From NCBI GenBank assembly GCA_947624255.1, contig CANQJO010000007.1:1-64000 (forward strand): a stretch of 64,000 nucleotides of DNA. Direction: 5' to 3'. Made by a program: the position numbers and the translations under genes. Below are positions 10,615 to 64,000 of this stretch, in pieces. The notes below the pieces were generated by a model that worked only from the letters and a program-made list of their open reading frames with translations, had not been told where the DNA came from and did not search any database. The number at the start of each line of letters is the position of its first letter. Positions within the stretch are counted from its first letter, which is position 1. The stretch is from an uncultured Ruminococcus sp. Its GTDB lineage: Bacteria; Bacillota; Clostridia; Oscillospirales; Ruminococcaceae.

Positions 10615-10643
10615 TTGACAACCGCTGCCGTGTATGATATAAT
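10615..10643 (+). promoter_or_regulatory. Consensus sigma-70 promoter pointing away from rpoB, with no plus-strand gene downstream
   Basis: TTGACA (10615-10620), 17 bases, then TATAAT (10638-10643) make a perfect consensus on the plus strand, preceded by CCTC as at other promoters in the window. Its start near 10650 fires toward the rpoB promoter. The next plus-strand gene is several kilobases away, so it should make a short RNA. Confidence 0.65.
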
Positions 10644-10649
10644 AACATG

Positions 10650-10775
10650 ATAAGAGGGACATTATCCCATTCTGATACATTTTATTATTATAATACATTA
10701 CTATATTTTTGTCAATAGCTTTTGGAAATATTTATCAAAGCTGCCAAATCATAGCTGATGATTCGGCATCTTTTT
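10650..10775 (+). ncRNA. Candidate small RNA of about 125 nt opposite the rpoB promoter
   Basis: A perfect plus-strand promoter ends at 10643, and a hairpin followed by TTTTTGTG lies at about 10741-10775 (CTGCCAAATCAT...ATGATTCGGCATC). Together they define a possible transcript of about 125 nt. The region has no plausible plus-strand ORF and matches no RNA family I recognise. The first 30 nt would be complementary to the 5' end of the rpoB leader. The hairpin pairs slightly better on the minus strand (a G-U pair replaces an A-C mismatch), so it may instead, or also, serve the gene at 10906. Confidence 0.4.
10687..10715 (-). promoter_or_regulatory. Consensus sigma-70 promoter of rpoBC
   Basis: On the minus strand TTGACA (10715-10710) is followed after 17 bases by TATAAT (10692-10687), a perfect consensus. 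The predicted transcript start is near 10680, giving a leader of about 190 nt before the rpoB ATG. The leader contains an inverted repeat CGGAGA...TCTCCG around 10562-10593. A plus-strand consensus promoter faces this one. Confidence 0.85.
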
Positions 10776-52434: not shown

Positions 52435-53517
52435 ATGGAAAATAAGAAAAAAACCATTGAGGCTCTCATCGAACAGGGAAAAGTCACCGGAAAACTCACT
52501 ACAAAAGAGATCACCGATGCACTGGAAGAGCTTGATTTCGACGTTGACCAGATCAATGCCTTCTATGACAACTGCGAAAGCCTGAATATCGAGATCGTTG
52601 AAGATATGAATATGGATGCCGACCTCAAGATCGGCATGGATTCCAACCTCACCGATGATCTTGAAATGGCACTTTCTACCGAGGGCATAGCTATTGACGA
52701 TCCCGTAAAGGTCTACCTCAAGGAGATCGGCCGTGTTCCGCTGCTCTCCACAGAGGAGGAGATCGAGCTGGCACAGCGTATGGTCAAGGGCGACACCTAT
52801 GCAAAAAACCGCCTCTGTGAAGCGAACCTCCGCCTTGTTGTAAGCATCGCAAAAAAATATGTCGGACGTGGTATGCAGTTCCTTGACCTCATTCAGGAGG
52901 GTAATCTCGGACTCCTCAAAGCAGTTGAAAAATTCGACTACACAAAAGGCTTTAAATTCTCAACATATGCGACTTGGTGGATACGTCAGGCTATAACCCG
53001 TGCTATTGCCGATCAGGCGAGAACGATCCGTATCCCCGTACACATGGTAGAAACCATTACCAAAGTGAAAAAGATCTCAAGTCAGCTTCTTCATGAAAAC
53101 GGTCATGATCCAAGCCCTGAGGAGATCGCCGAAAAGATCAATATGCCCGTGGATAAGGTTCGTGAGATAATGCGTGTGGCTCAGGATCCCGTTTCTCTTG
53201 AAACACCTATCGGCGAGGAGGAGGACAGTCACCTCGGAGATTTTATTCCCGATGACGATGCTCCCGCTCCGGCAGAGGCAGCCTCACATACACTCCTGCG
53301 TGAACAGCTCAACGAGGTTTTAGCTACTCTCACTGACCGTGAGGCAAAGGTTCTTAAACTGAGATTCGGTCTGGAGGACGGAAAATCCCGCACTCTTGAA
53401 GAGGTCGGACAGCGTTTCGATGTAACACGGGAGAGGATACGTCAGATCGAAGCCAAGGCTCTCAGAAAGCTCCGTCACCCCAGCAGAAGCAAAAAAGTAA
53501 AGGATTTTCTCGATTGA
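52435..53517 (+). CDS. rpoD: Primary sigma factor (sigma-70)
   Basis: This 360-residue housekeeping sigma factor directs RNA polymerase to -35/-10 promoters such as the many in this window. Region 1.1-like N-terminus (residues 1-80); region 2 with [26 protein letters not shown] and [21 protein letters not shown]; region 3; and region 4 with [33 protein letters not shown]. It follows dnaG by 36 bases and ends in a terminator. Confidence 0.98.
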
Positions 53518-53542
53518 TATTGAATTTCTGAGTTTTAACCAT

Positions 53543-53575
53543 AGCTGCGGCGAATATTTTCGCCGCAGCTTATTT
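53543..53575 (+). terminator. rpoD terminator
   Basis: The 12-bp perfect stem AGCTGCGGCGAA/TTCGCCGCAGCT (53543-53554 with 53559-53570, loop TATT) is followed by TATTTTGT. Confidence 0.9.
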
Positions 53576-53580
53576 TGTAT

Positions 53581-53609
53581 TTGACAAAAATTACGTTATG
53601 ATGTATAAT
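53581..53609 (+). promoter_or_regulatory. Consensus promoter of the EAL/beta-helix gene
   Basis: TTGACA (53581-53586), 17 bases and TATAAT (53604-53609), perfect. It overlaps the first codons of the track ORF (53598), so translation must start downstream. Confidence 0.85.
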
Positions 53610-53693
53610 ATTTATGAGTACGGTTTTTCTGCATACCGTCAATTGCAGATCCGCAGATCCGGTTTTGATACTGATGCGGAATATGGAGCAACA

Positions 53694-56432
53694 ATGAGTA
53701 TCTTCAACTTTGACAAAAATCCCCCGGAGCTGAGCCGTGACTGGAAAGTATTTCAGCAGTTTGTGGGCAATATCGGTGCTTTCACATATATTGCCAAGGA
53801 TAAAGCTGCCTATTTTGATGAAGCTGCCTGCCGTATGCTTTGCTGCCACAGCGAAAAGCTCAACGAATTTGAGTTTTTCAATCTCCTTGAAAAAATATCA
53901 AAATCACCCGTTGAAGGCCAGAAGCATATCTACCGCTTTAACGAAAACAGCACAACAAAATATATCAAAATGAATATCTACGAAAGCAGCGATGAATGGC
54001 TCGGATTTATTCAGGATTTCACACGCCAATTCTCGGCAGCAGACAATGAGAATAATTTTATGGAATACGACCCGGTAACGAGACTTCCCTCTTTTCCGTC
54101 ATTCTCTCAGGTGATAAAGAAAATTCTGCCGGAGGTCGAAAGCTGCTGCCTTGCAACGCTCTACATCAACGGTATAGACAAGCTCGGTTCATACCTTACC
54201 GTAGACAACACCAACAACTGCATTACCTCTGTGGCTGAGGCATTGAAGAGTTTCACCGGCGATAATGTCATCATAGGCTCAAAATCAAATTATGAGATAT
54301 GCGTATTCTTCAGAAACTGCGATAAAATGAGTGTTTACAATACCCTTAACAGTATGGACGAGGCAGTCCGGAGCTGTGTTCTCACCGATGATTTCGGCGA
54401 AATAATAGATATCTCCGATAAGGGGCAGCTCAGTCTCTCTATCGGCTGCGCATCATATCCGAAAGACGCATCTGATTTCAATATGCTTGTGAATTACTCC
54501 GAATTTGCACTGTACGAGGTACGCTCTGATAAACGCAGCGTAATAAACCGGTTCTCCGAGGAGAACTACATCCGTGAAAAGGACTCCTACAGAAATGCTC
54601 AGCTGTTTTCACGCATAATTCTTGAAAACCTCCTTACATATTACGTTCAGCCCATCGTTGAGACACGTACCGGCGAGATCGTCGCATATGAGGCTCTCAT
54701 GAGAACTACGGGCGATATAAAAATGACTCCCACGCAGATACTGAAGATCGCACAGGAGCATAACAATCTCTATGCTATCGAACAGCTCACATTTTTCAAT
54801 ACGCTGAAGCTCCTCAGTGATAATCAGCACATTTTTGAGAATAAAAAACTCTTTATAAACTGCATGACAAATGCGCTCCTTTCTGATGACGACTTCAATG
54901 ACTTGTATCTCACATTCGGCGAGCTTATAGAAAAAACCGTCATTGAGATCGTCGAGGACAATGATGCATCTGCCGCTGATCTGGAAATTCTGAAAAAACG
55001 CTGCGGTCTGACGCACGCTCAGCTTGCTATTGACGATTACGGCACAGGATATTCCAACACCTCAAACCTGCTGAAATACTCGCCGGATTACGTAAAGATC
55101 GACCGTTCGCTCATCAGCGATATCCATAACGATATGAAAAAACAGCAGCTTGTGGCATCGGTCATAGAATTCTGCCACGACAATCAGATACAATCCCTTG
55201 CCGAGGGCGTTGAGACAGCACACGAGCTGAAAACCGTTATACGTCTGGGAGTTGACCTCATTCAGGGATATTATACCTCAAAGCCAAAGCCGCTCTTCCT
55301 CAACAGCATCGCCGGAGACATAAAGGACGAGATCATCAGAACGAATCTCGAAACACGTCCCGACGGTATGAGAAAGATCTACAGCTCAAGAAACGATACC
55401 GAAATAGATATCGTTCAGCTTGCTCTTGAAAAATATACCGATATCCACGTTTATCAGAGTAAGCTCACTATTGTGGGCGATCCCGATCAGGCTGTGAAGA
55501 TGAATATTTCCGTCATGGATAATCATAGCTGCGAGATCACGCTCAAAAACGTCAATATCATCAGCAGCAACAGCAAGCCCACTATCTCAGTCGGAGAATA
55601 CGCCCGTCTGGTGCTTAATGTTGTCAAAACAAACAAGCTGAGCTACTCCGGTATCTATGTTCCCATGGGATCACAGTTTGAACTCACCGGAAAAGGAAGC
55701 CTCTCCATTGACTGTTATGCCTCCGAGGGCATAGGCATCGGAAATGACTACGATCACGGCTATGGCGATATCACTATAAATATGTCAGGCAGCCTTGAAA
55801 TGATCTCAAACAGCGATGACACGCTCTGCATCGGCGGAGGCTACAATAACGATGAATCTGAAATAAAGCTCCTCTCGGGCAATGTTGATATCTCAATGTA
55901 TGCTCACAATGGTCTTGCTATCGGAAGCTTCAACGGCGGTGCAATAATAGATATCTCTGAAAACTGTAAGCTGAATATGATGGTATCCGGAATAAAGGTC
56001 GCTGCTATCGGCTGCTGCACCGGAGAGGCAAATATAACTTCTGCCGCTGATATTGTTATGTCCTGCTCAGGAGCTCAGGCTCTCGGTATCGGAGTTATGG
56101 ACGAGGGAGAGGGCAATATCCTCATAAAAAAAGGCAAGATAAGAATAAAAACACGTTCTGCAAAGCAATCCTGCATCGGCACTTCCGGAGGCGTTATGAA
56201 TATCAAGATCAAGAATGCGGACATCGCTGTAGATTCCGAAGGTGACGAAGTGACCTGCATCGGCGATCCGAAAGGCGGCGGCAGCATTTCTATCATAGAT
56301 TCTGCCGTGAATATGAGTATTCTCGCCGGAACACCGATCGACCTCTCAGCAGGATCAAATGAGGTACAGATAAAAAATTCCTCTGTAAACTCAATAATAA
56401 ATAATAAAAAAATAACCCATAACAATAATTAA
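53694..56432 (+). CDS. EAL-domain c-di-GMP phosphodiesterase with degenerate GGDEF and C-terminal beta-helix-like repeats
   Basis: I place the start at 53694 (MSIFNFDKNPPELSRDW), with GGAG upstream, because the track start overlaps the promoter; length is then 912 residues. There is a PAS-like N-terminus (about 1-115), a degenerate GGDEF domain (about 120-285; loop IGSKSNYEICVFF), and an EAL domain (about 305-555) with intact AYEALMR, DDYGTGYSNTSNL and AEGVETAHEL. About 300 residues of short repeats follow, such as GKGSLSIDCYASEGIGIGND, GNVDISMYAHNGLAIGS and SCIGTSGGVMNIKIKNADI, typical of a right-handed beta-helix or carbohydrate-binding repeat. No signal peptide or membrane helix is present, so the repeats should be cytoplasmic, which is unusual. 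A separate promoter and ychF 16 bases downstream complete the context. Confidence 0.85.
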   Translation: MSIFNFDKNPPELSRDWKVFQQFVGNIGAFTYIAKDKAAYFDEAACRMLCCHSEKLNEFEFFNLLEKISKSPVEGQKHIYRFNENSTTKYIKMNIYESSDEWLGFIQDFTRQFSAADNENNFMEYDPVTRLPSFPSFSQVIKKILPEVESCCLATLYINGIDKLGSYLTVDNTNNCITSVAEALKSFTGDNVIIGSKSNYEICVFFRNCDKMSVYNTLNSMDEAVRSCVLTDDFGEIIDISDKGQLSLSIGCASYPKDASDFNMLVNYSEFALYEVRSDKRSVINRFSEENYIREKDSYRNAQLFSRIILENLLTYYVQPIVETRTGEIVAYEALMRTTGDIKMTPTQILKIAQEHNNLYAIEQLTFFNTLKLLSDNQHIFENKKLFINCMTNALLSDDDFNDLYLTFGELIEKTVIEIVEDNDASAADLEILKKRCGLTHAQLAIDDYGTGYSNTSNLLKYSPDYVKIDRSLISDIHNDMKKQQLVASVIEFCHDNQIQSLAEGVETAHELKTVIRLGVDLIQGYYTSKPKPLFLNSIAGDIKDEIIRTNLETRPDGMRKIYSSRNDTEIDIVQLALEKYTDIHVYQSKLTIVGDPDQAVKMNISVMDNHSCEITLKNVNIISSNSKPTISVGEYARLVLNVVKTNKLSYSGIYVPMGSQFELTGKGSLSIDCYASEGIGIGNDYDHGYGDITINMSGSLEMISNSDDTLCIGGGYNNDESEIKLLSGNVDISMYAHNGLAIGSFNGGAIIDISENCKLNMMVSGIKVAAIGCCTGEANITSAADIVMSCSGAQALGIGVMDEGEGNILIKKGKIRIKTRSAKQSCIGTSGGVMNIKIKNADIAVDSEGDEVTCIGDPKGGGSISIIDSAVNMSILAGTPIDLSAGSNEVQIKNSSVNSIINNKKITHNNN

Positions 56433-56448
56433 AAAGGCTGGTAATAAT

Positions 56449-57543
56449 ATGAAATTAGGCATGGTAGGACTCCCGAATGTGGGCAAGAGCACACTTTTCA
56501 ATGCACTGACAAATGCCGGAGCAGAATCGGCAAACTATCCATTCTGCACTATTGAGAAAAATGTGGGCATCGTTTCTGTTCCCGATGAGCGTCTTGATAA
56601 GCTCGCTGAAATGTATGACCCCGATAAATTTACTCCCGCAACTCTTGAATTTGTGGATATCGCCGGACTCGTCCGTGGTGCATCAAAGGGCGAGGGACTG
56701 GGCAATAAGTTCCTTGCGGATATCCGTGAGGTCGATGCGATCGTTCATGTTGTGCGCTGTTTTGACGATCCAAATATTATCCACGTTGACGGGAGCATTG
56801 ATCCTCTCAGAGATATCGAGACTATTGATCTGGAGCTGATCTTCTCTGACGTTGAGATCGTGGAGCGCCGTCTTGACAGAGCAAAAAAGGCTGCCAAGGG
56901 AGATAAGAAATATCTTGCGGAAACAGATCTTCTCGAACGTCTGAAATCTCATCTTGAAGACGGACATTCCGCAAGATCGTTTGACTTCACCGATGACGAG
57001 CGTGACATGATAAAGGACGCTCCTCTGCTTTCGGCAAAGCCTGTGATCTATGCCGCAAACCTCAGCGAAGAAGACTTCACCAACAACATAGATACAAATG
57101 AGAATCTCAGAAAAGTCCGTGAACACGCCGAAAAAGACCGCTCAGCCGTTCTTCCGATATGCGCTCAGATAGAGGCTGAGATCTCCGATATGAGTGAGGA
57201 GGACAAGCAGATGTTCCTCGGTGAACTGGGACTTGAGGTCTCGGGACTTAACCGCATAATCAAGGAGGGATATGCACTTCTCGGACTGATCTCCTACCTG
57301 ACCGCAGGCAAACAGGAGGTCAGGGCATGGACTATCACCAAGGGAACAAAAGCTCCGCAGGCTGCCGGAAAGATACACACCGATTTTGAGAAGGGCTTTA
57401 TATGTGCGGAGGTCATTTCGTTTGACGATCTTATGAGCTGCGGCAGTATGACTGCTGCCAAGGAAAAAGGACTTGTACGTCTCGAGGGCAAGGATTACGT
57501 GATGCAGGACGGCGATATAGTGCTGTTCAGGTTCAATGTATGA
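56449..57543 (+). CDS. ychF: Obg-family GTPase/ATPase YchF
   Basis: This 364-residue translation-associated nucleotidase has the P-loop GLPNVGKSTLFNALT at residues 7-21. A switch region, DIAGLVRGASKGEGLGNKFL, and the coiled-coil and C-terminal TGS domain (TKGTKAPQAAGKIHTDFEKGFICAEVI) typical of YchF follow. It is highly conserved across life. It follows the EAL/beta-helix gene by 16 bases and may share its transcript. Confidence 0.97.
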   Translation: MKLGMVGLPNVGKSTLFNALTNAGAESANYPFCTIEKNVGIVSVPDERLDKLAEMYDPDKFTPATLEFVDIAGLVRGASKGEGLGNKFLADIREVDAIVHVVRCFDDPNIIHVDGSIDPLRDIETIDLELIFSDVEIVERRLDRAKKAAKGDKKYLAETDLLERLKSHLEDGHSARSFDFTDDERDMIKDAPLLSAKPVIYAANLSEEDFTNNIDTNENLRKVREHAEKDRSAVLPICAQIEAEISDMSEEDKQMFLGELGLEVSGLNRIIKEGYALLGLISYLTAGKQEVRAWTITKGTKAPQAAGKIHTDFEKGFICAEVISFDDLMSCGSMTAAKEKGLVRLEGKDYVMQDGDIVLFRFNV

Positions 57544-57578
57544 TGAATACGTAAAAATTCAGAAATATCGCAATAAAA

Positions 57579-57606
57579 ATGGACGGCTCAGCTCCGTCCA
57601 TTCTTT
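57579..57606. terminator. Shared terminator between ychF and the GH105 gene
   Basis: The stem ATGGACGG/CCGTCCAT (57579-57586 with 57594-57601) has a T-rich right flank (TCTTT) and, on the minus strand, ATTTTTATT. It overlaps the end of the GH105 gene, and the two genes converge here. Confidence 0.7.
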
Positions 57607-58724
57607 ATGTATTCAGTGTAAGCCATTATCAGCGGAGCTATACCTTTTCCGTCATTTGTGACGACTTTTTCGCCGAGATAATATCCGGCAGAGCCGTCAC
57701 GCTGTGCAGATCCGCCAAGACCTGCCGTGAGACAGATGTTTCCAAGCACAGGAGCATCATTTTCCCTCAGCTCAACGTATTTCTCCGATACAGTCAGGAG
57801 CGCACTTCTGCCCGATGCAGCGATATCCGCACCGACAGCACCGAGCCGATATGCTTTCATTGCCGCATATGCAAAAAGCAGCGTACCGCTTGTTTCAACA
57901 TAATTTTTGGGGAGCTTTGTTTTCGCCGGAAGCTGCATAAGCAGATCATCCGATGTCATACAACGAGACAGCGCAGTAAGCAGCTCGCAAAGCATTTCAC
58001 AGCAGAACTCCCTTGCCGTTCCCTTTGGTGTAAAATCAAGGATATCGGCAATTGCCGCACAAAGCCAGCCCATAGAGCGCAGCCAGAACTCTCCCGAAAG
58101 ACCTGTCCGCTTGTCTGCCCAAGGCATGGAGCGAGACTCATCATAGCCGTGATAATATAATCCCTTGCCGGGATCACGCATCAGCCGGCGGATATTTTCA
58201 AGCTGACGGATAACATCGCTCATCATGTCTTTCCCGGAGATCATACCGTACTCCGCCATGAACGGGAATACCATATATGAACCGTCAAGCCATATCTGAT
58301 GCGGATATATCTCCTTATGCCGGAAGCTGCCGCAGTTAAGGCGAGGCTGTTCTTCAAGGTGTGAGGCAAGTATCTCCACTGCTCTTTCAAAGCGTCTGTC
58401 GGCAGATCTGAAGAAAATCAGATTTTTTGCACCGTTAAAATTATCAAGATTATGATCCGCATAATTCATCGTTAAGATATCTCCGTCCGGAGAAACGTAA
58501 TATTTAAGAAAATCAGCGGCATATGCCAAAAGCCGGTCATCTCCGCTGACCTCGTGAAGCATGGTGACAGCTTTTATCATGCAGTTGTCGATGTAATTCC
58601 AGCGGGGAGGTCTGCCGAAGATCATATTCTCTTTGTTCCAGAGAGGCTTTCCGGGCGCAGAGGGCAGGACAAGCATCTCAATATACGCTTTAACGATCGT
58701 TTCAAGTCTTTCCGTATCAGTCAT
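57588..58724 (-). CDS. GH105 unsaturated rhamnogalacturonyl hydrolase
   Basis: This 378-residue cytoplasmic enzyme is predicted to remove the unsaturated galacturonyl residue from rhamnogalacturonan-lyase products. The (alpha/alpha)6-barrel signatures of GH88/GH105 (YteR type) are visible: RWNYIDNCMIKAV, the catalytic-loop HQIWLDGSYMVFPFMAEY, GLYYHGYDESRSMPWADKRTGLSGEFWLRSMGW, and late SGTLLFAYAAMKAY. No signal peptide is present, so the substrate must be imported first. It is the last gene of the TetR-ABC operon and overlaps the permease before it by 4 bases. The family is clear; GH105 over GH88 is by the YteR-like motif pattern. Confidence 0.88.
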   Translation of the reverse strand: MTDTERLETIVKAYIEMLVLPSAPGKPLWNKENMIFGRPPRWNYIDNCMIKAVTMLHEVSGDDRLLAYAADFLKYYVSPDGDILTMNYADHNLDNFNGAKNLIFFRSADRRFERAVEILASHLEEQPRLNCGSFRHKEIYPHQIWLDGSYMVFPFMAEYGMISGKDMMSDVIRQLENIRRLMRDPGKGLYYHGYDESRSMPWADKRTGLSGEFWLRSMGWLCAAIADILDFTPKGTAREFCCEMLCELLTALSRCMTSDDLLMQLPAKTKLPKNYVETSGTLLFAYAAMKAYRLGAVGADIAASGRSALLTVSEKYVELRENDAPVLGNICLTAGLGGSAQRDGSAGYYLGEKVVTNDGKGIAPLIMAYTEYIKNGRS

Positions 58725-59548
58725 CCCGATATACCTCCTGAAGTGATACTATTGATGAATTTTTTCTGTGCAAGAGCAAAAACTGCAATTGAGGGGATAA
58801 GTCCTATCACGGACATTGCTATGATCTTCCCCTGTTCGTAACCCTGTCCGGTGCTGTCAACAGAGAGTCTCAATGCAAGTGAAAGCGGATAGTTCTCAAC
58901 GGACTGTATCATTATCAACGGCTGCAGAAATTCATTCATCGTCCGGAGAAATGTAAACACGGCGATCGTCACCACTGCCGGCTGTATACACGGCAAAAGT
59001 ATGTATACGAGTGCTTTTATCGAGCCGCAGCCGTCAATGCGTGCCGCCTCGTCCATTTCAACGGGAATGCTCCTGAAAAAGCGAATGAGTATGAACACGA
59101 ACATTCCCTCGCAGGCAAACAGCCACGGAACAGTCAGCGGAATATACGTATCGAGCAAGTGCAGCCTGCTCCACATAAAATATGACGGCATTATCGTTAC
59201 TATGGAGGGCATGAACATTCCTATCATAAGCAGGGCATAGAAAAATCTCTTGAACGGAAAATCAAACCTTGCAAAGCCGTATGCCACCACTACCGATGAA
59301 ATTAAAGCAAAGACCGTCCGGGGAATTATTATCCCGAATGTATTGAGAAAATAATGTCCCATTGTGTATGGTGTCACCGTCTGCCATGCGTTTCGGTACA
59401 CCTGTAGGTCTATACTCCGGGGAATAAACCACACTGACGAAAATATCTCCTCATTTGTCTTGAATGACGCTCCCACCAGCCATAGGAGAGGATACAGCAT
59501 AATTATCACTCCTGCTGAAAGGATCAGATATATGGGGAGCTTTTTCAT
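58721..59548 (-). CDS. ABC sugar transporter permease, MalG-like (CUT1)
   Basis: This 275-residue protein has six transmembrane helices and the binding-protein-dependent permease loop (EMDEAARIDGCGSIKALVYILLP) that contacts the ATPase. It pairs with the MalF-like permease. Position next to a GH105 gene suggests unsaturated pectin oligosaccharides as cargo. Overlaps both neighbours by 4 bases. Confidence 0.93.
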   Translation of the reverse strand: MKKLPIYLILSAGVIIMLYPLLWLVGASFKTNEEIFSSVWFIPRSIDLQVYRNAWQTVTPYTMGHYFLNTFGIIIPRTVFALISSVVVAYGFARFDFPFKRFFYALLMIGMFMPSIVTIMPSYFMWSRLHLLDTYIPLTVPWLFACEGMFVFILIRFFRSIPVEMDEAARIDGCGSIKALVYILLPCIQPAVVTIAVFTFLRTMNEFLQPLIMIQSVENYPLSLALRLSVDSTGQGYEQGKIIAMSVIGLIPSIAVFALAQKKFINSITSGGISG

Positions 59549-60429
59549 TTTCTCTCACCTCTGCTTACAAGATGCATTACTCCCACCACAACAGCTATCA
59601 TCACAAAAAGCACCCATGATACTGCGTTTGCATATCCTGCATTGTGATATGTGAACATTTCGTCGTAGATGAGCATTCCCACAGTGTATGTGCTTCTGAG
59701 CGGTCCGCCTCCCGTTATCATGTAAGGAGCGTTGAACTCCTGAAGCGCAGAAATGGTCTGTAGTACAAGATTTATGAACATTACTCCACGAAGCTGCGGA
59801 AGCGTTATATGTAAAAATCCTCTCCAAAAGCCGCAGCCGTCAACACGTGCAGCCTCATACTGCTCTGTGGGGATATCACGAAGTGCGGTAAGAAATATCA
59901 GCATAGTTGAGCCGAACTCCCACAGCCGCAGCAGTACCAATATGAACAGTGCATTATTTGGACTGCCGTACCAGCTCACGGGCGAGAGACCGATCATTTC
60001 AAGGAATTGGTCGACAAGTCCGTTTGCAGTGAAAAGATACTGCCACATTATCACCACCGAGAGATTTGCTCCCAAAATGGATGGTATGTAGAATATTGTC
60101 CTGTAAACGCCCATGCCTTTTATTTCCGCATTCAGCAGAAGCGCTGTCATGAGCGATACAACAAGTTTCAGCGGTACGAGTATCAGCGCATATTTCAGCG
60201 TGACTTTCACTGCTTTGATAAATCTGTCATCGGCAGACATTTTTCTGAAATTATCCGCTCCGATAAATTCCGGAGCGTGTATGCCGTCGTAATCGGTAAG
60301 TCCCAGAGCAAATGAGCAAATGAACGGATAAAGTGTAAACAGCAGAAATCCCACTATAAACGGCGATATGAGAAGCAGTCCCGTAAATCTGCTCACTCCT
60401 ACGGGATTATTGTATCTGCGTGCTTTCAT
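59545..60429 (-). CDS. ABC sugar transporter permease, MalF-like (CUT1)
   Basis: This 294-residue membrane protein has six predicted helices and the EAA-type loop QYEAARVDGCGFWRGFLHITLPQLRG. It forms the translocation pore with the MalG-like protein. It overlaps both neighbouring genes by 4 bases. Confidence 0.93.
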   Translation of the reverse strand: MKARRYNNPVGVSRFTGLLLISPFIVGFLLFTLYPFICSFALGLTDYDGIHAPEFIGADNFRKMSADDRFIKAVKVTLKYALILVPLKLVVSLMTALLLNAEIKGMGVYRTIFYIPSILGANLSVVIMWQYLFTANGLVDQFLEMIGLSPVSWYGSPNNALFILVLLRLWEFGSTMLIFLTALRDIPTEQYEAARVDGCGFWRGFLHITLPQLRGVMFINLVLQTISALQEFNAPYMITGGGPLRSTYTVGMLIYDEMFTYHNAGYANAVSWVLFVMIAVVVGVMHLVSRGERK

Positions 60430-61724
60430 TTCTTGAGTCTCTCCAGATACTCCGTTATCGAGCGGTAAAGCTCCTCCGCAGCAGTATCGGTATCAGATTC
60501 ATTATATGAGACATTCTCTATTGCCGTGTTATAAAACTCTTTCATACGTGAAAGCTCCATATAAGGACTTATGGTGAGTGTATCCGCCTGCTCAAGCATT
60601 TCGTCATTCTGTTGTGCAAGCCCGGAAAGCATTCCGCTTTCTTCAAGTGCCTCCTCTGCATAGCGTGATGCCGGTATGCCTCGTGTTGTTCCCAATATTT
60701 TTGCGCACTCGGTGTTATTCAGGAGAAAATCTACAAATGCTGCTGCCTCATCGGGGTGCTTTGTGTTTTTTGACACAGCATACAGCATCGAGGGCTTTAT
60801 CATCCAGCCGCCTGTTTTTCCATTGTCTGAGAGCAGCGGTCCTGCTTCAAGAATTCCCTCCGGCAGCACAGATTCGTACTTGCCCACTGAGCTTCCCCAT
60901 TCAAGGACTCCCGCTATCTTTCCGTCAATAAATTCCGGAGACTGATAAAGTGCCGCATTGCCGTCCTCATCGGTGCGTGTCTGTATGGTACGTATGACAT
61001 GGTTATCCTCCATGCGCTTGTAAAAATCGAGAGCGCATTTGAGATCCTCCTGCGTAAAGCCGAGCCTGCCGTCCATGGTGATAAACTCTCTGCCTGTCTG
61101 CTGCTGGACGTAAACGACCGCAAGATACCACGCTGTTCCGCCGGATTGTATATCAAGGTCAAGAGGATACATATCGTGATCGCTGAATCTCTCTCCCAAT
61201 GCGATGAGTTCGTCCCATGTTTTCGGATATGAGACGCCGAGGCTTTCATATACCTGTGAATTGTAGAAAAGTCCCCTGCCGGTAACAGACACCGTAACAG
61301 CGTTGAGTCTGCCGTCTGCCTCTCCAAAGGAGAGTATATCATCGTCAAATCCGGAAAGATCAAGACCGGGGAGCTGCCGGAGATCATAAAATCCCTCTCC
61401 GTCGGGAGACATTGTTATGAGCCAATCATAATTTATCTGCATGATATCCGGCTCGTTGCCGCTGCCCACCTGTGCTGTGACCTTTTCCGACCACCCCTCC
61501 CAACCGCCGTACTCCGGGATTATCGTTATTTCGGGATGGAGCTCATTCCACAGCTCAATGGCTTCGAGAGTAGCCGCATGGCGGTCATCTCCTCCCCACC
61601 ACGAAAAGCGGAGACTGCATTTATCAAGTGTTCCATCAGGGGGAGTGATCTCCTGTTTTTTATCTCCGCAGGCTGAAAATGCCAATACACAGCTCATTGC
61701 TGCCGTAATAATATATCTCTTCAT
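60426..61724 (-). CDS. ABC transporter extracellular sugar-binding lipoprotein
   Basis: This 432-residue family 1 solute-binding protein has a lipoprotein signal (MKRYIITAAMSCVLAFSACG, lipid Cys at 19) and then the SBP fold (SLRFSWWGGDDRHAATLEAIELWNELHPEITI). It captures an oligosaccharide, probably a rhamnogalacturonan-derived unsaturated disaccharide in view of the GH105 gene. It follows the TetR gene by 3 bases and precedes the MalF-like permease with a 4-base overlap. No ATPase gene lies in the operon, so a shared MsmX-like ATPase elsewhere is expected. Confidence 0.92.
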   Translation of the reverse strand: MKRYIITAAMSCVLAFSACGDKKQEITPPDGTLDKCSLRFSWWGGDDRHAATLEAIELWNELHPEITIIPEYGGWEGWSEKVTAQVGSGNEPDIMQINYDWLITMSPDGEGFYDLRQLPGLDLSGFDDDILSFGEADGRLNAVTVSVTGRGLFYNSQVYESLGVSYPKTWDELIALGERFSDHDMYPLDLDIQSGGTAWYLAVVYVQQQTGREFITMDGRLGFTQEDLKCALDFYKRMEDNHVIRTIQTRTDEDGNAALYQSPEFIDGKIAGVLEWGSSVGKYESVLPEGILEAGPLLSDNGKTGGWMIKPSMLYAVSKNTKHPDEAAAFVDFLLNNTECAKILGTTRGIPASRYAEEALEESGMLSGLAQQNDEMLEQADTLTISPYMELSRMKEFYNTAIENVSYNESDTDTAAEELYRSITEYLERLKK

Positions 61725-61727
61725 AGA

Positions 61728-62267
61728 CTAATCCTCAGTCATTATCCTCAGAATACCGTCCGAGAGCTTTTCGATGACCTCCAGAACAGATTTCACGCCG
61801 CTGTCGCAGTATTTGAAATATGTGTAATATCCCCCGTATATCAGAAAGCTCATGACCATGCGGCTTTGTATGCCGGGATCGTAATCGGGATAGACGCTGT
61901 GTATCAGGGACATCAGCTCATTTTCCAAGAGAGTTATAAAGCTTGCGCTCCGGCTGCCCTCAAACAGTATTTTTATCAGTTGTTCATTCACCACAAAGGC
62001 ATCGGCAAGCTCTCTGATAAACAGCTTATTGTCACGCAGGACCTCCTCTGTATGTTCGATCGAATTGAGCGTTGATCTGACTACCTCACGTTCAAGTGAT
62101 TCCGAAAGGTCGTATATATCGTGATAGTGAAGATAAAACGTTGACTTGTTGATCTCTGCGATATCAGCAAGTTCCTTGACTGTGATCTTCTCCAGCGGCT
62201 TACCGGCACGGAGTTTCAGAAAAGCATTTATGATATTGCGGCGTGTACGTTCAACACGCATATCCAT
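61728..62267 (-). CDS. TetR-family transcriptional regulator
   Basis: This 179-residue regulator has an N-terminal helix-turn-helix (about residues 8-50, RRNIINAFLKLRAGKP...VKELADIAEINKSTFYLHYHDIYDLSE) followed by an all-helical ligand domain with the TetR_C DhaS/AcrR-like pattern. It is the first gene of the pectin-uptake operon, so it probably controls its own operon and perhaps the divergent glgB. A nested inverted repeat upstream (62303-62335) is a candidate binding site. RBS: AAGGAGGGG. Confidence 0.9.
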   Translation of the reverse strand: MDMRVERTRRNIINAFLKLRAGKPLEKITVKELADIAEINKSTFYLHYHDIYDLSESLEREVVRSTLNSIEHTEEVLRDNKLFIRELADAFVVNEQLIKILFEGSRSASFITLLENELMSLIHSVYPDYDPGIQSRMVMSFLIYGGYYTYFKYCDSGVKSVLEVIEKLSDGILRIMTED

Positions 62268-62302
62268 AGCGAACCCCTCCTTATTGCAGTGAACTGTTAA
62301 AT

Positions 62303-62335
62303 AGACAATTAAAGACAGCAGTCTGATAATTGACT
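62303..62335. promoter_or_regulatory. Nested inverted repeats between tetR and glgB, candidate operator
   Basis: The outer arms AGACAATTA (62303-62311) and TAATTGACT (62327-62335) pair with one mismatch. An inner pair AGAC/GTCT (62313-62316 with 62321-62324) lies between them. It lies in the leader of the TetR operon and about 20 bases upstream of the glgB -35, positions where a TetR dimer could block transcription. Confidence 0.5.
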
Positions 62336-62353
62336 TGCGTTAAAAAATGACTA

Positions 62354-62382
62354 TTGAAAATACGCCAAGATTACTATATAAT
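62354..62382 (+). promoter_or_regulatory. Promoter of glgB
   Basis: TTGAAA (62354-62359), 17 bases and TATAAT (62377-62382). The predicted start near 62389 falls inside the -10 box of the opposing TetR-operon promoter. Confidence 0.75.
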
Positions 62383-62384
62383 AG

Positions 62385-62413
62385 ATTATAGCAGAATAAT
62401 CGACAAATGTCAA
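62385..62413 (-). promoter_or_regulatory. Consensus promoter of the TetR/ABC/GH105 operon
   Basis: On the minus strand TTGACA (62413-62408), 17 bases and TATAAT (62390-62385), perfect. The predicted start near 62378 falls inside the -10 box of the glgB promoter; the two promoters face each other. Confidence 0.8.
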
Positions 62414-62429
62414 TTACCGGAGTGATTCA

Positions 62430-64000
62430 ATGGATATTTACGAATTCTACAAGGGAGAGGTCTTCGATGCTTATGAATATCTTGGCGCTCACCTCTCCGA
62501 GAACGGCACTGTCTTTCGTACCTATGCGCCGAATGCCTCAAAAGTCTCATTGATAGGAGATTTCAGCCGGTGGGAGGATATCCCCATGGAACAGATCGCT
62601 GACGGCAATTTCTATGAGCTTTTCTGTCCCGATGCAAAGGAGGGTATGCGGTATAAATTCCGCATCTATGACAGAAACGGCAATTTTATAGATCACTGCG
62701 ATCCATACGGCTTTGGAATGGAGCTTCGCCCCGGAACTTGCTCCGTTATCAGAAGCATTGAGGATTTCAGCTTCACTGACGAAAAATGGCTCTCTCAGCG
62801 GACTGACGGTCATGATAAGCCGATGAACATCTACGAGGTACACCTCGGCTCATGGCGAAAAAAATCAGATGCTCCCGAGGATTGGTATAACTATTCGGAA
62901 ATAGCCGATATGCTCACCGACTACGCTCTGAAATTCGGATACAACTATCTGGAATTCATGCCTCTCAGTGAGCACCCCTGCGATGAATCATGGGGATATC
63001 AGATCACCGGATTTTTCGCTCCCACCTCACGATACGGCACTGCAAAGCAGCTCATGGAGCTTGTTGACAAATGCCACAGCAAGGGTATCGGCGTAATAGT
63101 TGACTTCGTTCCCGTCCATTTTGCCGTTGACCACTATGCCCTGACCGAGTATGACGGCACACGGCTTTATGAGTTCCCTGATGATGAGGCAGGATATAAT
63201 GAATGGGGCAGCAGGAATTTCATGCACTCCAAAGGCGAGGTTCGCTCATTTATCAGGTCGGCAGCAAATTACTGGCTCAGTGTTTATCACTTTGATGGCA
63301 TCAGAATGGACGCTATACGCAATATGATCTACCTGAACGGCGATGAGCACCGTGGCGAGAACCGTCAGGCGATCGAGTTTCTGAGATCCATGAACTGCTG
63401 TCTTAAAGCACGTCACCCCACTGCGATCATTGCCGCAGAGGATTCCTCTACGTATCCAAAGGTCACCGCTCCCGTATTTTTGGGAGGACTCGGCTTCGAC
63501 TACAAATGGGACTTAGGCTGGATGCATGACACTCTTGAATATTTTCAAAGTGCTCCCATGTATCGCTCAAGAGATTACCACAAGCTGACGTTCTCGATGC
63601 TGTATTTCTACAACGAAAAGTTTATTCTGCCTCTCTCTCATGATGAGGTAGTCCACGGAAAAGCCTCGATCTGTCAGAAAATGAACGGTCAGTATCCCGA
63701 TAAGTTTCCGCAGGCAAAGGCTCTGTATATGTATATGATCTCCCACCCCGGCAAGAAGCTGAACTTCATGGGCAATGAATTTGCTCAGCTCAGGGAATGG
63801 GACGAAAAGCGTGAGCAGGACTGGGAGGTGCTGAAATATCCTCTGCACGACTCGTTCAGAGAGTATATAAAGGCTCTCAATAAAATTTATCTAAAATACA
63901 ATGCGCTCCACTATGACTATGACTCCACAAATTTCATGTGGGATGACTGCTCGTCCACGGAAAGGTGCATTTATGCCATACGCCGCAAGAGTAAAGACGG
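62430..64000 (+). CDS. glgB: 1,4-alpha-glucan (glycogen) branching enzyme, 3' partial
   Basis: This gene runs off the right edge; about 523 residues are visible and branching enzymes usually have 620-750. It forms alpha-1,6 branches in glycogen. An N-terminal E-set/CBM48 region (about 15-105, GTVFRTYAPNASKVSLIGDF) is followed by the GH13 barrel (MNIYEVHLGSWRKK, WGYQITGFFAPTSRYGT). The catalytic residues are Asp294 (DGIRMDAIRNM), Glu337 (IAAEDSS) and Asp405 (PLSHDEVVHGK). The start ATG at 62430 follows GGAG by 7-8 bases, and a leader of about 40 nt follows the promoter. The ORF track omits it, presumably because no stop lies in the window. Confidence 0.96.
   Translation, partial: MDIYEFYKGEVFDAYEYLGAHLSENGTVFRTYAPNASKVSLIGDFSRWEDIPMEQIADGNFYELFCPDAKEGMRYKFRIYDRNGNFIDHCDPYGFGMELRPGTCSVIRSIEDFSFTDEKWLSQRTDGHDKPMNIYEVHLGSWRKKSDAPEDWYNYSEIADMLTDYALKFGYNYLEFMPLSEHPCDESWGYQITGFFAPTSRYGTAKQLMELVDKCHSKGIGVIVDFVPVHFAVDHYALTEYDGTRLYEFPDDEAGYNEWGSRNFMHSKGEVRSFIRSAANYWLSVYHFDGIRMDAIRNMIYLNGDEHRGENRQAIEFLRSMNCCLKARHPTAIIAAEDSSTYPKVTAPVFLGGLGFDYKWDLGWMHDTLEYFQSAPMYRSRDYHKLTFSMLYFYNEKFILPLSHDEVVHGKASICQKMNGQYPDKFPQAKALYMYMISHPGKKLNFMGNEFAQLREWDEKREQDWEVLKYPLHDSFREYIKALNKIYLKYNALHYDYDSTNFMWDDCSSTERCIYAIRRKSKD

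Follow-up and report, generated by a model that had tools for sequence, protein, structure and literature searches.

A pair of promoters that share the same few base pairs on opposite strands raises the question of whether the genes on either side are expressed as alternatives or switched together. Such a pair lies at 62354–62413 in a 64,000-nucleotide stretch of DNA from an uncultured Ruminococcus sp. (contig CANQJO010000007.1; hereafter the window), between glgB and a tetR-type gene that is followed by a sugar-uptake operon, and the original prediction was that polymerase occupancy would make glgB expression and pectin-oligosaccharide uptake mutually exclusive. The glgB promoter (P-glgB, 62354–62382, forward strand) consists of a TTGAAA −35 box (62354–62359), a 17-bp spacer and a TATAAT −10 box (62377–62382), matching 11 of 12 consensus positions. 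The tetR promoter (P-tetR, 62413–62385, reverse strand) matches all 12, with a TTGACA −35 box (62413–62408), a 17-bp spacer and a TATAAT −10 box (62390–62385) that is preceded by TG. Both promoters were found exactly where they had been predicted.

The −35 boxes of the pair are outermost and the −10 boxes are only 2 bp apart (TATAAT-AG-ATTATA). With transcript starts placed 7 nt past each −10 box, the predicted glgB start (62389) falls inside the tetR −10 box (62385–62390) and the predicted tetR start (62378) inside the glgB −10 box (62377–62382), in agreement with the original prediction. These starts are 11 bp apart, and both the genes and their transcripts are divergent. Because the tetR start is the left-hand one, the two RNAs would not overlap, and convergent antisense overlap of the transcripts was ruled out. 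By prediction, the locus thus has the divergent starts, opposite strands and interlocking −10 regions that define a bidirectional promoter. In such promoters, the divergent starts commonly lie 10, 18 or 23 bp from each other, and a polymerase bound in one direction shuts out its counterpart (Warman et al., NAR 2026, PMC12825309). The predicted spacing of P-glgB and P-tetR fits the 10-bp class, and it follows from the geometry that a polymerase bound one way would exclude one bound the other way.

The gene assignments of the original prediction also held. The glgB gene (1,4-alpha-glucan branching enzyme, 62430–63998, forward strand, ATG at 62430) extends past the window end and encodes 596 aa in full (complete ORF in L039); the part inside the window already scored above two equivalog cut-offs (NF008967, 638.6 bits against 577; TIGR01515, 550.7 against 463.95). 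On the other side, a 179-aa protein (61728–62267, reverse strand, ATG at 62267) was identified as a TetR-family regulator from its orthologues and its predicted fold: TetR_N was found in 19 of 23 aligned orthologues, the window protein itself scoring below the gathering score, and the fold was predicted as that of TetR (pLDDT 86), its PDB fold matches being TetR-family regulators (best E ~1e-3). The nearest named NCBIfam model was DhaS (TIGR02366; 5.8e-8), at 32.9 bits and so short of the cut-off of 129. The regulator has a predicted TetR fold with an N-terminal HTH, and its gene is kept adjacent to and divergent from glgB, as expected of an autorepressor.

Several observations excluded a chance overlap. 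In 60 first-order Markov simulations of the 64-kb window, divergent pairs within 40 bp in which both promoters matched at least 10 of 12 positions numbered 0.12 ± 0.32, against one observed in the window; at 11 of 12 or better, a level that the observed pair reaches, there were none in the simulations. A strict pattern (TTGANA-N17-TATAAT-N(0-20)-ATTATA-N17-TNTCAA) occurred once in the 2.24-Mb source genome and in 23 of 75 genomes of the genus (24 sites), with no occurrence in the reversed control of either. By their coordinates, 17 of those 24 sites lie at tetR–glgB and one lies at a glgB without tetR. Conservation of the hexamers, described below, likewise spoke against chance.

The arrangement had further been said to repeat one seen at rpoB and to reflect a recurrent design in this genome, and neither claim survived. 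Upstream of rpoB, two promoters with 12 of 12 matches (10615–10643, forward strand; 10687–10715, reverse strand) do face each other, but convergently: their predicted starts (10650 and 10680) are 30 bp apart and the transcripts would converge and overlap by ~30 bp. Transcription from the forward promoter of that pair would leave the rpoB leader towards no obvious gene. A looser pair pattern was found at nine places in the source genome against three in the reversed control, and only at glgB/tetR was it near consensus on both sides. Since the rpoB geometry is the opposite and the strict pair is unique in the genome, a recurrent design is unsupported and was rejected.

We then compared the locus across genomes. 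Among 110 loci (some genomes counted twice), glgB was divergent from this TetR gene in 104; the 80 of them that came from a scan of a genome collection had the divergent tetR–glgB arrangement at 76, a fraction that is uninformative on weaker homologues because those 80 were the best TetR matches. The arrangement spans Ruminococcus, Oscillospiraceae and Lachnospiraceae (Dorea, Blautia and Eisenbergiella), as well as Flavonifractor and Gemmiger, and the homologous loci include those of R. flavefaciens FD-1 (L066) and XPD3002 (L067). An even sample of the class (196 genomes) held eight others with a strong TetR match, six of them with glgB divergent.

Mean column identity to the window sequence, over 39 Ruminococcus-type intergenic regions, was high in the hexamers of P-glgB (−35 box, 0.88; −10 box, 0.97) and P-tetR (−10 box, 0.94; −35 box, 0.96), and low in the spacers (0.35 and 0.49, respectively), in the gap between the −10 boxes (0.32), beside the tetR start (0.11) and in the glgB leader (0.25). 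That both sets of hexamers are conserved while spacers and flanks are not indicates that selection holds both promoters. The −10 boxes of the strongest Ruminococcus pairs are separated by 3 bp (18 regions), 2 bp (8 regions) or 0 bp (2 regions); beyond Ruminococcus, where strong pairs are few, the separation is 1–3 bp. Insertions part the two promoters at four loci (L017, L020, L029 and L034), which suggests that tight overlap is favoured, yet dispensable. The insertion that splits the pair at L034 is ~190 bp long with inverted GGCAACACCGCAC-like ends, resembling a small mobile repeat. In Lachnospiraceae, the glgB −35 box is poor; across L089 and L098–L138 (Lachnospiraceae and relatives), a conserved GTCGGTGG- or GATGGTGG-like element takes its place, and is perhaps an activator site or another form of operator.

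When every palindrome with 3-bp halves was counted across 85 distinct tetR–glgB intergenic regions, GAC-N4-GTC ranked first for its half-site composition: it was present in 47 regions, whereas half-sites made up of the same bases averaged 2.2. This motif is likely, from its sequence and distribution, to be the TetR operator. The window holds three candidate sites. O1 (GACAAATGTC, 62402–62411) lies over the tetR −35 box, about 13–22 bp past the predicted glgB start; O2 (GACAGCAGTC, 62314–62323) falls within the leader of tetR, on the upstream side of the glgB −35 box; and O3 (GACTTGCGTT, a GTT variant, 62332–62341) is 18 bp from O2. As sequence, then, tetR has a palindromic candidate operator overlapping its own promoter. 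Of the 85 regions, 48 have an O1-type site and 36 the O2–O3 array; in the reversed control, the corresponding figures are 2 and none. In two genomes that keep the promoter pair with no divergent tetR (G025 and G042), the O2/O3 array is absent, as would be expected if these sites serve TetR. Since 38 of the 85 regions have no perfect GAC-N4-GTC, the true operator must be less strict. Where both O1 and O2 occur (18 regions), their start-to-start distance is 87–90 bp in only nine, and DNA looping between them is no more than a possibility. A possible third promoter (TAGACA-N17-GATAAT, 62302–62330), further upstream, was set aside: its conserved bases coincide with those of the O2/O3 array, and promoter and array are not distinguishable there.

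Behind tetR, on the same strand, lie the genes that gave rise to the pectin claim. An ABC transporter substrate-binding protein (60426–61724; SBP_bac_1; PDB 2uvh, 1.7e-68) begins 3 nt after the tetR stop, followed by two ABC sugar permeases (59545–60429 and 58721–59548; BPD_transp_1 in both) and a YteR-like GH88/GH105 unsaturated uronyl hydrolase (57588–58724; Glyco_hydro_88, 1.2e-57; PDB 4wu0, 2.4e-57; YteR 1nc5, 9.9e-41). With a binding protein related to 2uvh, which we take to be TogB of Yersinia, two permeases and a GH105 hydrolase, the gene content is that of an oligogalacturonide-uptake operon of the TogB/YteR type, and ‘pectin-oligosaccharide uptake’ is a fair reading from the genes.

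The link of this operon to glgB is local. A relative of the binding protein was found in 64 of 75 genomes of the genus, most with one at 58–78% identity, but among the loci examined none of the other genomes had the binding-protein gene beside tetR. The nine relatives that were read have their own promoter-like TATAAT-type stretch just upstream of the binding-protein gene; in the source genome this stretch is gone, and no reverse-strand promoter-like site was found inside tetR. Given the lack of a tetR neighbour elsewhere and the lost promoter stretch here, the sequences are most simply read as operon capture in a single lineage. A pectin–glycogen link as a general feature was accordingly discarded, the conserved unit being tetR–glgB alone. 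Local misassembly is unlikely to account for the tight tetR–operon junction, which carries a ribosome-binding site and lies on one contig. In relatives, the binding-protein gene adjoins rpoD (L054) or is divergent from a gene for an EAL-domain protein (L051). In the source genome, both rpoD and the EAL gene are found past the operon's 3′ end (52435–57588), pointing to a local inversion as the event that placed the operon behind tetR. The EAL gene (53598–56432) encodes a 944-aa protein with the EAL domain at residues 342–563; its long C-terminal portion has no match in Pfam.

Taken with its conservation, we consider it probable that the locus is a conserved bidirectional promoter at which TetR switches tetR and glgB together, a choice between glycogen and pectin being less likely. 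The pair at 62354–62413 would be an interlocking divergent promoter for the housekeeping sigma factor, within an old, conserved TetR-autorepressor module. TetR dimers would bind GAC-N4-GTC at O1, on the tetR −35 box and just past the glgB start, and at O2/O3, upstream of the glgB −35 box; bound TetR would shut both directions, by analogy with AcrR at acrR/acrA, and a ligand would release both. At a TetR-free site only one polymerase could bind at a time, hence each initiation would briefly block the other, and between two near-consensus promoters this exclusion could set the TetR:GlgB ratio but would not make a stable either/or switch. The ABC/GH105 operon, being joined behind tetR in the source genome, would probably come under the same control. 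The sequences directly show the promoter and operator-like elements with their conservation, the order of the genes and the singular placement of the operon; transcript starts, TetR binding, two-sided repression, the ligand and polymerase competition are all elements that we infer. More doubtful is a wider reading, in which this is a dedicated, hitherto undescribed TetR regulator of glycogen branching in Clostridia, polymerase competition at its near-consensus bidirectional promoter is itself functional (by setting the proportion of regulator to enzyme or by dampening noise), and pectin-oligosaccharide uptake was plugged in by this lineage.

That polymerase occupancy alone enforces the choice between glgB and pectin-oligosaccharide uptake, as originally predicted, now appears quite improbable. 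The geometry does forbid simultaneous binding and both promoters are near consensus, so that competition once TetR is released is plausible and may add to repression; to that extent the prediction stands. In E. coli, competition at bidirectional promoters was negligible at basal strength, as in five examples tested, and appeared when a −35 box was improved, which repressed the other direction, or when one direction was activated (PMC12825309). Against an occupancy switch, however, the conserved module occurs without the pectin genes, each occupancy would be short and exclusion alone carries no sugar signal. Conserved candidate operators, positioned so as to block both promoters, predict shared control instead, and make co-repression likelier than a mutually exclusive choice.

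Common repression by TetR has a point counting against it, in that TetR proteins can activate and the nearest named model (DhaS) carries an activator annotation. TetR could therefore be a switch that represses one direction and activates the other, with O1, for example, blocking the tetR promoter while O2/O3, which sit upstream of the glgB −35 box, aid glgB; plasmid pLS20 offers a precedent of overlapping divergent promoters with a dual-role regulator (PMC4207663). We regard such a switch as unlikely: a protein bound at O1, so soon after the glgB start, should be an obstacle to transcription, and the Ruminococcus glgB promoter, with its near-consensus elements, should work without an activator. 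It is highly unlikely that a single promoter is in use, with the other arising from the symmetry of the −10 box. A TATAAT box is almost self-complementary, and a good tetR promoter is kept without a good glgB −35 box in one subclade (L038, L083, L085–L087 and L095), but the two −10 boxes are distinct hexamers, a conserved −35 box accompanies each of them at 17 bp, and each promoter faces a real gene.

The preferred reading, a shared promoter under one TetR repressor, has counterparts in known systems. Like other prokaryotic bidirectional promoters (PMC12825309; Salmonella survey, PMC10268837), which often lie between divergent genes, this one has predicted starts ~10 bp apart and interlocking −10 regions; unlike the E. 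coli examples studied, which have low basal activity, its −35 boxes are both near consensus and both promoters are conserved in the genus. At the bidirectional acrR/acrA promoter of E. coli, the TetR-family protein AcrR represses the RNAs of both directions (PMC12825309); there, as here, the regulator gene is divergent from its target across a shared promoter region, and one repressor would similarly serve both directions at glgB/tetR. The target here is a glycogen enzyme rather than an efflux pump, no activator is known and there are several candidate operators. The pLS20 conjugation switch (Pc/Pr with RcoLS20 and a DNA loop; PMC4207663) is also Gram-positive, with overlapping divergent regulator and target promoters and more than one operator; looping and dual activation and repression are features of pLS20 that glgB/tetR may not share. 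DhaS-type regulators (TIGR02366; PDB 4mk6) supply the nearest named model, and 4mk6 was among the top fold matches, but the score is far below cut-off and the gene neighbourhood differs.

A bidirectional promoter with a TetR autoregulator is therefore of a kind already known, and it is the link between glgB and its regulator that may be new. We found no description of a TetR regulator of glgB in Clostridia in the literature searched, and TetR goes unmentioned in a 2023 review on glycogen in gut commensals (PMC10395257); this conserved candidate regulator appears not to have been reported so far. Its target would be glycogen branching in bacteria that are abundant in the gut and the rumen. As a clean bidirectional promoter, strong on both sides and conserved across the genus and part of the Clostridia, the locus makes polymerase competition testable outside E. 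coli, and the pectin operon behind tetR offers a natural case for testing how an existing regulatory module captures a transport operon.

Apart from G025 and G042, genomes of the genus without this divergent tetR have other arrangements at glgB: either a wholly different promoter beside a divergent aroC-like gene, or glgB placed behind a substrate-binding-protein gene. At L139–L141 and L144–L148, which lack the TetR gene and have the aroC-like neighbour, the glgB promoter is TTGACT-N17-TATAAT with a near-palindromic, conserved spacer around ATATATCGT, possibly reflecting another control of glgB in that subclade.
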